This document shows positions 1 through 27,163 of a stretch of 64,000 nucleotides of DNA, one piece after another; the first letter of the stretch is position 1, and every line of letters starts with the position of its first letter. The notes beneath the pieces are model-generated. The model saw nothing but the letters and a program-made list of their open reading frames with translations, was not told where the DNA came from and made no database searches. Origin of the DNA: Rhynchopus sp. YZ270_cl-10 (taxonomy: Eukaryota > Euglenozoa > Diplonemea > Diplonemida > Diplonemidae); contig OZ037867.1 of the NCBI GenBank assembly GCA_964035575.1, positions 1 through 64,000 on the forward strand, written 5' to 3'. The translations under genes were made by a program, and so were the position numbers.

Positions 1-5
1 AACAT

Positions 6-46
<41 letters not shown>

Positions 47-26100: not shown

Positions 26101-27163
26101 TGCTGGGACTGTTGTAATTGTGGCTTCTGCTGTGTTGTACGTCTAAATAGCTGCATACACCCGTATCACATCGCACACCTGGCTCTCCACCTCTACACCA
26201 GTGTCTGCTGTTGTTGCTGGAGTTGTTGTTGTTGCTGCTATCAAAGCTGCAGCCGCTTAGGTTGTTGGGCACCAAAGGCCTCTTTTTGGGGTAATAATGG
26301 GGGGGAATGGGGGGACTGTTTCTGCTGGCGCTGCAGAAGTTGCTGTTGCAGCAGTTGCTGTTGCTGTTGGTGTTGGTGTTGCCATTGCTGTATTTGATGA
26401 TGAAGCTCTTGTTGCAGCCGTTGCAGTTGCAGTAGTTGGAGCTGTTGCTGCTGCTCTTGCTGCTGTTGCTGAGGCAGTTGCTGTTGTTGTTGCTGTGGCA
26501 GTTGCCATTGCTGTTGTTGCTGTTGATGTTACTCTTGTTGCAGCTGTTGCATTTGCTGTAGGTGGAGCTGATGCTGTTGCTCTTGTTGCTGTTGCTGAGG
26601 CAGATGCTGTTGCTGTTGCTGTTGCTGTAGTAGTTGCCATTGCTGTAGTTGCTGATGTTGTAGCTCTTGTTGCGACCGTTGCAGTTGCTGTAGGTGGAGC
26701 TGATACTGTAGCTCTTGCTGCTGTTGTTGCTGTTACTGCAGTAGTTGCCATTGCTGTTGTTGCTGTTGCTGTTGCTCTTGCTGCTGTTGCTGTAGCAGTT
26801 GCTGTTGTTGTTGCTGTTACTGCAGTAGCTGCCATTGCTGTTGTTGCTGTTGATGTTGCTCTTGTTGCAACCGTTGCAGTTGCTGTAGGTGGAGCTGATG
26901 CTGTTGTTCTTGCTGCTGTTGCTGTAGCAGTTGCTGTTGCTGTTGCTCTTGCTGCTGTTGCTGTAGCAGTTGCTGTTGTTGTTGCTGTTACTGCAGTAGC
27001 TGCCATTGCTGTTGTTGCTGTTGATGTTGCTCTTGTTGCAACCGTTGCAGTTGCTGTAGGTGGAGCTGATGCTGTTGTTCTTGCTGCTGTTGCTGTAGCA
27101 GTTGCTGTTGTTGCTGCCCACCACCAACACACATAGCACCCCCAGAAGGGCCTTCCTCCGCAT
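17198..27163 (-). CDS. LINE-B: complete giant RLE-type retrotransposon polyprotein with three OTU domains
   Basis: One frame of 3,321 codons from an ATG at 27163. It starts MRRKALLGVLCVLVVGS, like a signal peptide, then a long Ser/Asn-rich stretch and the motif YYPKKRPLVPNN. Next come a hydrophobic segment LLVLLSLLWRAV (near 25050), OTU-1 (Cys in HDCSLAAIH near 24695, His in GHYEAI near 24335), C2H2 finger CPVEGC...HLKLH (about 24150), reverse transcriptase (about 23130-22400; KVDYHNAFNTVDR, QQGDPLGPILFS, YLDDG near 22640), knuckle CNGCS...GDHTFSC and restriction-like endonuclease (KRPADVFLP, ALDFTVV; about 21690-21400). OTU-2 (about 20745-20320) reads GDSGFDALL, with Ser where Cys is expected, and lacks GHYE. 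OTU-3 (about 19790-19420) has GDCLFDAL and GHFETL. A Cys/His cluster follows each of the last two. A charged coiled coil and a short C-terminal repeat (QTGSGHTAPSAH twice) end it. Clearly diverged from LINE-A but unbroken. Confidence 0.92.
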   Translation of the reverse strand: MRRKALLGVLCVLVVGSNNSNCYSNSSKNNSISSTYSNCNGCNKSNINSNNSNGSYCSNSNNNSNCYSNSSKSNSNSNCYSNSSKNNSISSTYSNCNGCNKSNINSNNSNGSYCSNSNNNSNCYSNSSKSNSNSNNSNGNYCSNSNNSSKSYSISSTYSNCNGRNKSYNISNYSNGNYYSNSNSNSICLSNSNKSNSISSTYSKCNSCNKSNINSNNSNGNCHSNNNSNCLSNSSKSSSNSSNYCNCNGCNKSFIIKYSNGNTNTNSNSNCCNSNFCSASRNSPPIPPHYYPKKRPLVPNNLSGCSFDSSNNNNSSNNSRHWCRGGEPGVRCDTGVCSYLDVQHSRSHNYNSPSNSSSSDSSSSSSNRNSSSTSNNTGSNTIRGHNSSINSNFSSSYSNSNNSSTSDSSSSSSNCNNSSTSSSTSSSTSSNTIRGHNSSNNNNISSNGSNSYNSSTSDSSSSSSKCNNSSTSGSTSSNTSSNTIRGYNSSNNSSSCNRNNSNTFRDYNSSNSNNSPHGDSGGMPVFWGSLVGPETLGGCVSMRMWSTVLTPNVHMGRAEHGLGFDWWSILWERLSSLRRPDPRWVAEAPEWGVFVSFAVLDLWKDRRAPTLSHYILWLMRRRTRKTRRGYRSLNWIKTQAGKLHRRKVHTRPPSPVARLFLSALCRVRREWRLLRLAVSLVGSAIQADGPLLWIGMSLLVLLSLLWRAVTPWDLRPPTPRFVKVEEAAHWDDEVAHLAEDVGDEEVAVWDDEFVEGDDDWAWGLRDEVDDWEFPEEYIPHDQLVGGCADATLSATYGDHALEVDRILGEAHAQRVPNNFVHDCSLAAIHASGWRSAPPSYSTDRKDIGDLAVTLERAMRSVLKSGDALTRWIDGVRGSAKLDHLALRLFAVRRNLNIVIVQAGATPIVLIAPGEGNIKNEEKRAKELMGRTTVAVALCNGHYEAIRPVDERDFRDISSALLKKAVRAKLNPLALDQCPLSTSDPSGEDLESCLGKPEEDFCFCPVEGCKGGIVSQSDVKSFTRSGLLNHLKLHTRAAEYIPDHILSYFGFRRCVGDECTALLQRSQSACQACSAIMKEVPAPSIDNRLRGARPAGMPSLQEIGTTRFKLKGTCPPDLAHRYTLIFQRVLQEILVHQDPCAWTKFALFFTVLHRDRAHGRRTKVTDRRCFNSWKKDLDRWDAGSWGELWSNALDEVQDQPVWTPGDTLEARQKRSRLKAATGLPGQALTALTSDGLAPHGPATLEKLKGKHPTEIRSVMHENVRNPSGPADFTTKEVMEAISSMPRATAGGPSNLTGSLLRVLCNQKHTPGTLAALTKVLSSLAQGKAHREVAPFFAGAKLVALRKVSKDKPEDVRPIAVGDVTRRLIGKILANRLRKRAAEIFRKGNQVGVSTPRGSEAATAVVAQYARKYLGMDKVILKVDYHNAFNTVDRATFISAVERHIPEISTWVRWCYAGHTSLFYGEATLESQCGVQQGDPLGPILFSLAIAEMTERLSANRGLDGSIWYLDDGCIRGDPEAVLAAYDALVDSSSRLGLKVNRSKCELVTLAGDSAEDLRNRGFTIRDASDGHNDGFSLHNQNFDFLGIPIGTAEHCRKYMQSKLDKSKLNLNALRNLKDSQHAYYILRFCEGFCKMVFYMRGISCVDLGEGYLRDFDAEVDRCLATILHDEHGALPAQARLQAALPIAIGGLGIRRTVDHWPAAALASQAGSFKLAQQLDPKFEWDKARWKNAAEAYNTRVPASQHIDGDRMPSKAVVQQQLSSAIVDEQAAELKRVATSDRDRARLLSLQLPMSGTWLTATPSPPNSIPSAYFAGAARFRLGVAVHKPKSECNGCSRDGVCMDAFGDHTFSCGYMGHRTERHDALKHSFFLAADAAGLNPSLEKDLGFESGKRPADVFLPSGIMETRRRALDFTVVAPTLPTYVHRAAQHSEYAAKVAGEEKRKKHLEDCRGADVLFSPMVFEAFGGASEECNRVISQVAGLACTKDPGGDAPTEARLREHMSCAYQAAVGKSFVARGVLCTDINEHLPHSADSVQRPAEEDLRQMDSTYLSNPVSNLPEREPSVEVEEAEIAHEPRDYFSMPEKKVGGTVFRHNPFRAGRQAGGETPAAYWNILRMMADGACPDAETQAARLGLTHPQRYKILRGDSGFDALLTACSVDLKKDLLIEDINGETSHKELRRRAVEIVKNDRPDLADCISIPVKNWLEYMGTKSSDRSDARTWMDMVALAGAGEALECTIVIICDRMRPQILVPTKRAREALFVFAGPVDDVSQDWFLSPLSFTDSHLKGEILGMEPIPAPKSKRFCKSVAMMKRIPAAQSAPVGTVYQCRRCVRPIDGCEAHFKCAEGCERLVCDLCSRDSPFCPASQNGLADILSGNVRSSAPSPTPHTSHDTHMKGAERARSPTFPQATPREDDQEASSFLHNLEKLVLSPTHSLTDMNVFKSWAVDRQAEFLGSRTRNSFTVGDCLFDALAANFAPNTPYHSSSLLRKLAVAQVLRDAKLAARTGDRRSWMERKLREGCRDDTTWADETMIMGLCEVLEMTIILVSPGAVPKIYVPRLCAPHGALGLVFTGVIAGHFETLSLNVDAVKILCAAKPLRADTCLWEPTTGPFICRGCDGHSEGAEAESHFCTTCCTSCCVACRVSQDQVTCAGPPVPMDDQPDGPRGTRRGNEDPIDNGAPHVRDLMRFHETERGLLRLWWCVRAGVHEGALKDQWEREEELEVAEMVKRHEAEMRQAGVKEEEMDVDQTQTGATPVRHPAHPDETPPMPPSSQGDWEQAGATMQDLHQTDASPQPVTPPRFAEEPEDRESGFEGGVEGEVPPEEGKELRRRSAERRRLSEERQRQEREAAEVLLRRARSESASRFVSAKVKSSEQRRETMQEKAMGVRSPAGAQPGSAKTSELTKAGALNRRQAQNLTASQRREESRQRFRLGFASCEEQEAEGRRNIGNEESIQGRETILLHATSERCLLLLRDAERSHGDLRDEEDMAFSKLRTASCLLAQAFLPRSAPSTGEDKKPGTAKQGIELVDTQNRRKGVSQARVTTGRENRVRNARQATPAVENPTDAETPPDSFRLDDVEGEARQRVEEIARKLQWGYQVSKGGCYPCLSMGQPVMRNVQQWVEAFHHRQGAVDTRLGTVACFWAYREWLHTWKALNWEAPEAAQKKIRSTLDCLNRAMGDTSFRDRANLWDPTVTVTLALDPGSRGRDPDGVDSTTAPTTTSQTGSGHTAPSAHQSATSCSAEPTSPFGRRYTAAEVMMESDDESPIAAAQSTSDSSTAPAAMNAQTGSGHTAPSAHPSATSCAAACSIDVDAVDEDFQ
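25610..27130 (-). repeat. Trinucleotide-type low-complexity DNA encoding the LINE-B N-terminus
   Basis: Variants of GCTGTTGTTGCT on plus (AGCAACAACAGC on minus) with larger internal repeats of about 180 bp, for example at 26760 and 26940. It gives Ser/Asn with periodic Cys, Tyr and Lys in the LINE-B frame. Alternative frames give Ala/Val or Gln/Thr runs. Confidence 0.85.

Follow-up and report, generated by a model that had tools for sequence, protein, structure and literature searches.

Why should a long interspersed nuclear element (LINE) carry domains of a protease fold at both ends of its protein, and what would they do there? The question is raised by a 64,000-nucleotide stretch of contig OZ037867.1 (assembly GCA_964035575.1, positions 1 to 64,000, forward strand) of the diplonemid Rhynchopus sp. 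YZ270_cl-10, referred to here as the window. Two giant open reading frames, LINE-A and LINE-B, occupy part of it. As read from the DNA, each element is a single giant protein joining copying and cutting enzymes with two to three OTU-fold domains. The OTU domains are probably deubiquitinases acting on the retrotransposition complex or on target-site proteins, a reading that is held with moderate confidence.

1..9534, plus strand: LINE-A frame, 3177 codons, the 5' end beyond the window edge and the start unseen
17198..27163, minus strand: LINE-B frame, 3321 amino acids, beginning with ATG

Neither frame contains an internal stop among the open reading frames of the window, and both lie where the initial annotation had placed them. 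The proteins are 41% identical (LINE-A residues 604-2524, LINE-B residues 518-2375), with an extra match of 30% between the C-terminal OTU of LINE-A and the last OTU of LINE-B. A common C-terminal domain (LINE-A 2924-3042, LINE-B 3077-3185) is also 30% identical. The DNA of the reverse transcriptase (RT) region gives two alignable stretches of only 63-64% identity, so that LINE-A and LINE-B are two families rather than two copies of one. The order of parts in both is a Ser/Asn-rich repeat, a hydrophobic stretch, a first OTU (OTU1), zinc motifs, RT, a CCHC knuckle, a restriction-like endonuclease (RLE), a further OTU, a Cys/His cluster and the C-terminal domain. The annotated order, running from the first OTU to the Cys/His cluster, is borne out, with the C2H2 pattern found by script in LINE-B only and by eye in LINE-A. 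The annotation had not included the hydrophobic stretches before OTU1, the common C-terminal domain, or a second OTU and Cys/His module on the C-terminal side, which is confined to LINE-B and leaves that element with one catalytically dead OTU. The parts other than the OTU modules and the N-terminal region are as follows, relatives being named by P numbers.

3451..3663, plus strand: C2H2-like motif (by eye, with longer spacing) and C4 zinc motif, LINE-A
23948..24157, minus strand: C2H2 and C4 zinc motifs, LINE-B, by pattern match
4258..5235, plus strand: RT, LINE-A, with WYLDDG at residues 1661-1666
22400..23371, minus strand: RT, LINE-B, by Pfam RVT_1
5950..6420, plus strand: CCHC knuckle and RLE, LINE-A (RPGDV...LDIT)
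21209..21673, minus strand: CCHC knuckle and RLE, LINE-B (RPADV...LDFT)
8848..9135, plus strand: conserved C-terminal domain, LINE-A, also in LINE-B and P0004
17594..17881, minus strand: conserved C-terminal domain, LINE-B, by sequence match to LINE-A

Pfam detects RVT_1 in both frames (E 2.5e-15 and 2.1e-20). After the RT, a CCHC knuckle followed by a K/RPxD...D motif is present in LINE-A, LINE-B, P0004 and others. Compared with the PDB, the family profile has R2 (E 4.8e-12) and L1 (E 2.5e-10) as its top matches. In three R2 chains the knuckle and, after it, the K/RPD...D motif are matched in a second stretch as well, none of these alignments being significant individually. At E up to 0.1, Pfam gives neither protein an endonuclease match that would point to an AP endonuclease, nor a match to Ulp1. 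Assignment to RLE-type LINEs of two diverged families, as annotated, is supported by the RT, knuckle and RLE together with the protein identity given above. The RT tree that was to check it contains R2 and L1 as its only references, and the R2-like placement comes from architecture more than from tree topology.

The best 120 of 379 relatives were examined, and the names among those 120 point to Polarella, Ephydatia, a tardigrade and moths. The RT tree has 104 rows, namely 99 of these relatives, LINE-A, LINE-B, two R2 and one L1 fragment; the other 21 listed relatives, including P0123, lack the RT motif or sufficient flanking length. LINE-A, LINE-B, P0004-P0007 and P0009 form a single clade with support 1.0, within which all placeable OTU-bearing relatives fall. 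A C-terminal OTU is present in LINE-A, LINE-B, P0004 and P0005; whether P0006 ends in part of such a domain is doubtful (profile E values of 0.15 and 0.34). An N-terminal OTU is present in LINE-A, LINE-B, P0009 and P0123, and P0007 ends before either OTU site. Among the clade members and P0123, every sequence that reaches an OTU site carries the module. Profile builders aside, the best matches of the OTU profiles to the 120 relatives are at E 0.053 (P0009), 0.15 (P0006), 0.2 (P0098) and 0.21 (P0123), those of P0009 and P0123 falling in or near their OTU1. A search with P0004 850-1140 for further OTU relatives returned P0004 itself only. P0005 represents 44 sequences clustered at 90% identity, perhaps a multicopy family. 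Outside the OTU clade, the LINE protein P0075 joins RT and RLE to a full USP domain at its C-terminus. Related loci number seven in genome_contigs, 27-33% identical and in records of bacterial metagenome-assembled genomes, and none in viral_contigs.

The OTU modules and their adjoining Cys/His clusters are distributed as follows.

2833..3300, plus strand: OTU1, LINE-A (Cys971, His1088; borders approximate)
24314..24781, minus strand: OTU1, LINE-B (Cys823, His941; borders approximate)
6868..7320, plus strand: C-terminal OTU, LINE-A (Cys2311, His2429)
20354..20791, minus strand: OTU2, LINE-B, positional counterpart of the LINE-A C-terminal OTU (Cys to Ser, His to Phe; predicted inactive)
19379..19876, minus strand: OTU3, LINE-B (Cys2467 and His2578 kept; Pfam PF02338)
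7432..7536, plus strand: Cys/His cluster, LINE-A
20075..20182, minus strand: Cys/His cluster after OTU2, LINE-B
19211..19324, minus strand: Cys/His cluster after OTU3, LINE-B

None of the four OTU1 sequences (LINE-A, LINE-B, P0009, P0123) departs from an Asp-Cys pair and a His, and 28 of the 159 full columns of their alignment do not vary. The C-terminal OTU keeps Asp-Cys and His in four of five rows (LINE-A, LINE-B OTU3, P0004, P0005; 21 of 135 columns invariant). LINE-B OTU2 has GDS in place of GDC and Phe in place of His. Its identity to the LINE-A C-terminal OTU is 37% (32% in another alignment), that of OTU3 29%. That a dead OTU in the original position stands beside an added live module suggests, from this one case, that each element needs one live OTU on its C-terminal side. 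By sequence OTU1 has no OTU match in Pfam or the PDB. In an alignment of its profile with that of the C-terminal OTU the catalytic Cys and His residues coincide, and the predicted OTU1 model resembles OTU structures in Foldseek. For the C-terminal OTU the predicted model has the OTU fold, the evidence on the fold of OTU1 being weaker, and PF02338 is above cut-off only in LINE-B OTU3. Taken together, models and alignments give a predicted OTU fold for both kinds of module with the catalytic Cys and His kept, in support of the annotated domains at both ends.

The size of the proteins depends on the frames being coding throughout, and the N-terminal parts are the point at issue.

1..1800, plus strand: Ser/Asn-rich N-terminal repeat, LINE-A, CAG-type DNA, coding status weakly supported
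25619..27163, minus strand: Ser/Asn-rich N-terminal repeat, LINE-B, delimited by repeat and simulations
27183..27235, minus strand: pyrimidine tract of 53 nt, then AG and the LINE-B ATG, 20-72 nt before that ATG
27934..29860, minus strand: A', a disrupted 5' fragment belonging to the LINE-A family, 97% identical to LINE-A 2210-2917, with a 302-nt frame-shifting deletion

The chance of a stop-free frame was estimated by simulation under four composition models, three plain and one phase-aware. From residue 889 (LINE-A) or 696 (LINE-B) to the end there are no stops against 33-61 and 36-82 expected, and under each of the four models none of 100 simulations is stop-free. LINE-A 1-1800 is stop-free in 1-2 of 1,000 simulations under the plain models versus 333 of 1,000 under the phase-aware one, and the openness of the repeat alone therefore proves little. 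No model leaves LINE-A 1800-2664 without a stop in more than 10 of 1,000 simulations, or LINE-B 1-1500 in more than 17 of 1,000; for LINE-B 1551-2085 the figure is 2 to 70 of 1,000. LINE-A frame 0 has no stop before 3000 and the other two frames have 19 and 26; the LINE-B coding frame has none before 2700 and the others 16 and 38. A candidate explanation by which the first 850 codons are merely stop-free repeat is partly rejected, LINE-A 1800-2664 and, less strongly, its LINE-B counterpart having a single open frame that exceeds chance expectation. Between LINE-A and A', third-position changes are in excess in 2210-2917 (11/20, P 0.038) and borderline in 2210-2660 (7/12, P 0.066), with no excess in the repeat at 618-1777 (26/68, P 0.23). 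An in-frame stop lies 93 nt ahead of the LINE-B ATG, and the pyrimidine tract with its AG is a possible (trans-)splice acceptor. Most of each frame, if not the whole, is taken to be coding, the repeat being least certain.

Between repeat and OTU1 the two elements share the following.

2659..2715, plus strand: strongest hydrophobic stretch, LINE-A (scan window at residue 887)
25049..25105, minus strand: hydrophobic stretch, LINE-B (scan window at residue 687)
1810..2208, plus strand: DNA-conserved upstream segment, LINE-A (dN 0.20, dS 0.41 against LINE-B)
25193..25612, minus strand: its LINE-B counterpart, by alignment to LINE-A

The hydrophobic parts of LINE-A and LINE-B match each other only, all further relatives lying at E 0.34 or above. 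Four relatives outside the OTU clade (P0010, P0030, P0050, P0085) have a common hydrophobic N-terminal region of their own (E 1e-8 to 0.007), without a sequence match to the LINE-A and LINE-B stretches. LINE-B residues 1-16 form, by eye, a signal-peptide-like start, followed by 54 N-x-S/T sequons in 515 residues. Hydrophobic stretches and sequon-rich part may be a by-product of the repeat. LINE-A 2687-2747 is 98% identical in DNA to LINE-B 25017-25077, and the upstream segments (dS 0.41) are far closer between the elements than the enzymes that they precede (OTU dS >2). Changes in LINE-A 1810-2208 are spread near-evenly across codon positions (0.20, 0.21, 0.24), which weakens the case for that segment being protein-coding. 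Sharing of 5' ends by recombination, or a DNA or RNA signal, would explain its likeness.

What, then, would the OTUs do? Judging by the core of RT, knuckle and RLE, the RLE would nick the target and target-primed reverse transcription would follow, both steps being established for R2. The OTUs would take ubiquitin off the LINE ribonucleoprotein or off proteins at the target site, and its removal would spare the very long LINE protein from proteasomal loss or ease repair at the nick. Deconjugation is what the OTU of these elements has in common with the USP of P0075 and with the Ulp1 of one Utopia element and of nematode NeSL, and for that reason deubiquitination is the first choice. By such means the elements may counter the host's protein-disposal system. 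Several points weigh against this reading. No Foldseek match of the OTU1 model reaches E <= 0.001. Run on the LINE-A C-terminal module by itself or on P0004 and P0005 at full length, Pfam reports no OTU at E up to 1. The OTU1 models are built on four sequences and those of the C-terminal OTU on five. Between LINE-A and LINE-B the proportions of nonsynonymous (pN) and synonymous (pS) differences are 0.30 and 0.75 in the RT, 0.50 and 0.72 in OTU1, and 0.45 and 0.72 in the C-terminal OTU, the OTU domains changing faster than the RT. The domain-wise dN/dS comparison proposed with the annotation gives about 0.3 in the OTU domains, which is only suggestive at a saturated dS of about 2.3-2.4, speaks neither for nor against that proposal and leaves purifying selection on the OTUs unproven. 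Lastly, a short motif at matching places before OTU1 in both elements fits self-cleavage equally.

2794..2805, plus strand: L-x-G-G (LTGG before CA), LINE-A, residues 932-935, 36 residues before the OTU1 Cys, a candidate cleavage site
24806..24817, minus strand: L-x-G-G (LVGG before CA), LINE-B, residues 783-786, 37 residues before the OTU1 Cys

Viral papain-like or OTU-like proteases process polyproteins, and OTU1 could likewise cut in cis after L-x-G-G, so that OTU, RT and RLE would come away from the N-terminal region with its Ser/Asn-rich repeat and hydrophobic stretches; this is the main, if doubtful, alternative. LVGG is the sole [LIVM]xGG among the 3321 residues of LINE-B, P0009 has A-M-Q-G-G 33 residues before its OTU1 Cys, and an RLE LINE does not usually have a protein of more than 3000 residues, a comparison that comes from the initial annotation. 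Set against these are the absence of GG at that place in P0123, the fourth OTU1 relative, four further [LIVM]xGG sites in LINE-A and, in the motif lists, no [LIVM]xGG common to both elements at another domain border. Moreover, P0075 carries USP and published RLE LINEs (PMC4640811) carry Ulp1, neither being a typical polyprotein protease. Self-cleavage could also be joined to deubiquitination: in a LINE resembling a viral polyprotein, a Ser/Asn- and sequon-rich N-terminal part would tether the nascent product through its signal-like and membrane-spanning-like stretches and be shed by OTU1 after L-x-G-G, releasing a nuclear OTU-RT-endonuclease whose C-terminal OTU would strip ubiquitin from the complex. 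So elaborate a scheme is quite improbable.

It is unlikely, too, that the OTUs are mainly targeting modules which bind or erase ubiquitin on chromatin, for example on ubiquitylated histones at the insertion site. LINE-B OTU2, which still aligns after the loss of both catalytic residues, is what would be expected if binding alone were useful, and the OTUs adjoin Cys/His clusters; the remaining modules, however, keep Cys and His, and no target site is definable in the window. Least credible of all is an accident, whether host protease genes captured by chance or frames open by composition, without a role. The phase-aware result for LINE-A 1-1800 (333/1000) would suit it, but OTUs of 26-38% identity stand at the same places in LINE-A, LINE-B, P0004 and P0005 (C-terminal) and in LINE-A, LINE-B, P0009 and P0123 (N-terminal), and in LINE-B a live OTU accompanies the dead one.

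The two elements have known counterparts of several kinds. RLE LINEs with an N-terminal Ulp1-like protease, NeSL of nematodes and Utopia-1_TSP, are described in PMC4640811. Like LINE-A and LINE-B these have a single protein with zinc fingers, RT, knuckle, RLE and, in some members, a protease of ubiquitin-like proteins; unlike them, the protease there is Ulp1, whereas here it is an OTU, at both ends and in two or three modules. R2 (PDB 9nl3, 9dou, 9nl2) shares the RT, CCHC knuckle and K/RPxD...D endonuclease and is, with L1, the best PDB relative, but its PDB chains have 1121-1390 residues versus 3177-3321 and only the RT match is significant. P0075 belongs to the same wider RT family and has a C-terminal deubiquitinase domain, which is of UCH/USP type and outside the OTU clade. 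Among DNA transposons, excerpts of PMC4067079 report Helentrons with OTU proteases, and excerpts of PMC2836005 report Ginger1 with OTU or Ulp1; these too recruited OTU-fold proteases of unproven role, unlike LINE-A and LINE-B in not being LINEs. Repair-related, chromatin or self-cleaving roles are proposed by the authors of those two papers in the same excerpts. An EF2-like gene near the elements makes a diplonemid the probable host: among the best 120 of 7994 matches it is 94% identical to one entry without a species label and 63-66% to others, 59% (over 67% of the query) to one labelled Helianthus annuus, 48% (over 78%) to one labelled Drosophila nasuta, and then 65% to Diplonema papillatum and about 60% to kinetoplastids. 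For D. papillatum, about 2500 retroelement gene models are reported, with SLACS, R2, jockey and LINE-1 types, and section 8 of that genome paper (PMC10161547) names no OTU, other protease domain or protease-bearing LINE. The main text of a trypanosomatid mobilome study (PMC12278014), as far as available, mentions no OTU or protease. No published OTU-bearing LINE was found in the open-licence literature. Protease-bearing RLE LINEs are thus already known through Ulp1, and what appears new here is the OTU, its place at both ends and its two or three modules.

Additional copies and repeats surround the two elements in the window.

12515..14254, plus strand: second copy of the LINE-A 3' end, a 5'-truncated insertion or a tandem duplicate, end approximate

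In two stretches, of 551 and 215 bp, the copies of the LINE-A 3' end reach 98.9-100% identity, against 87.5-92.5% over longer, repeat-bearing alignments. Both have the same 3' flank, as site-specific insertion could leave, and tandem duplication also fits. The annotated proposal that more than one lineage is active was inferred from the intact frames; recent movement is hinted at for the A family only, through this near-identical 3' end copy. Two TATACTGTG 9-mer arrays (11622-12128 and 14407-15116) lie downstream of the two copies. Satellite units of CGGTGCACAGGGGGCG type occur in both orientations at 9455-9706, 12543-12868, 12138-12334 and 15873-16069, and also code the final residues of the LINE-A frame. 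Between A' and LINE-B, an insert at 27566-27933 on the minus strand has a terminal run of 52 A and is bounded by a 10-bp direct repeat, GGTTCCACCA; it is a putative SINE-like (short interspersed nuclear element) or processed insertion. Two inverted elements of about 1 kb, at 29951-30985 (plus strand) and 31322-32345 (minus strand), are 89% identical and end in A or T runs. They contain the last 3' stretch of LINE-A (11354-11467, 93%; 11315-11467, 78%) and are likely non-autonomous partners of LINE-A. No Rfam match reaches the gathering score in the window, hence none to a U2 snRNA or spliced-leader RNA gene; the 5' flank of LINE-A is outside it.

Several mobile elements have taken up Ulp1, OTU or USP proteases, which may act on ubiquitin, on SUMO or on the protein of the element. 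The Rhynchopus elements offer a natural test case, in which one protein has two OTUs, the other family combines a dead OTU with an extra live one, and a cousin bears a USP. If the OTUs are deubiquitinases, LINE proteins would be under control by ubiquitin, and this conflict would have led several times to the selection of opposing enzymes.

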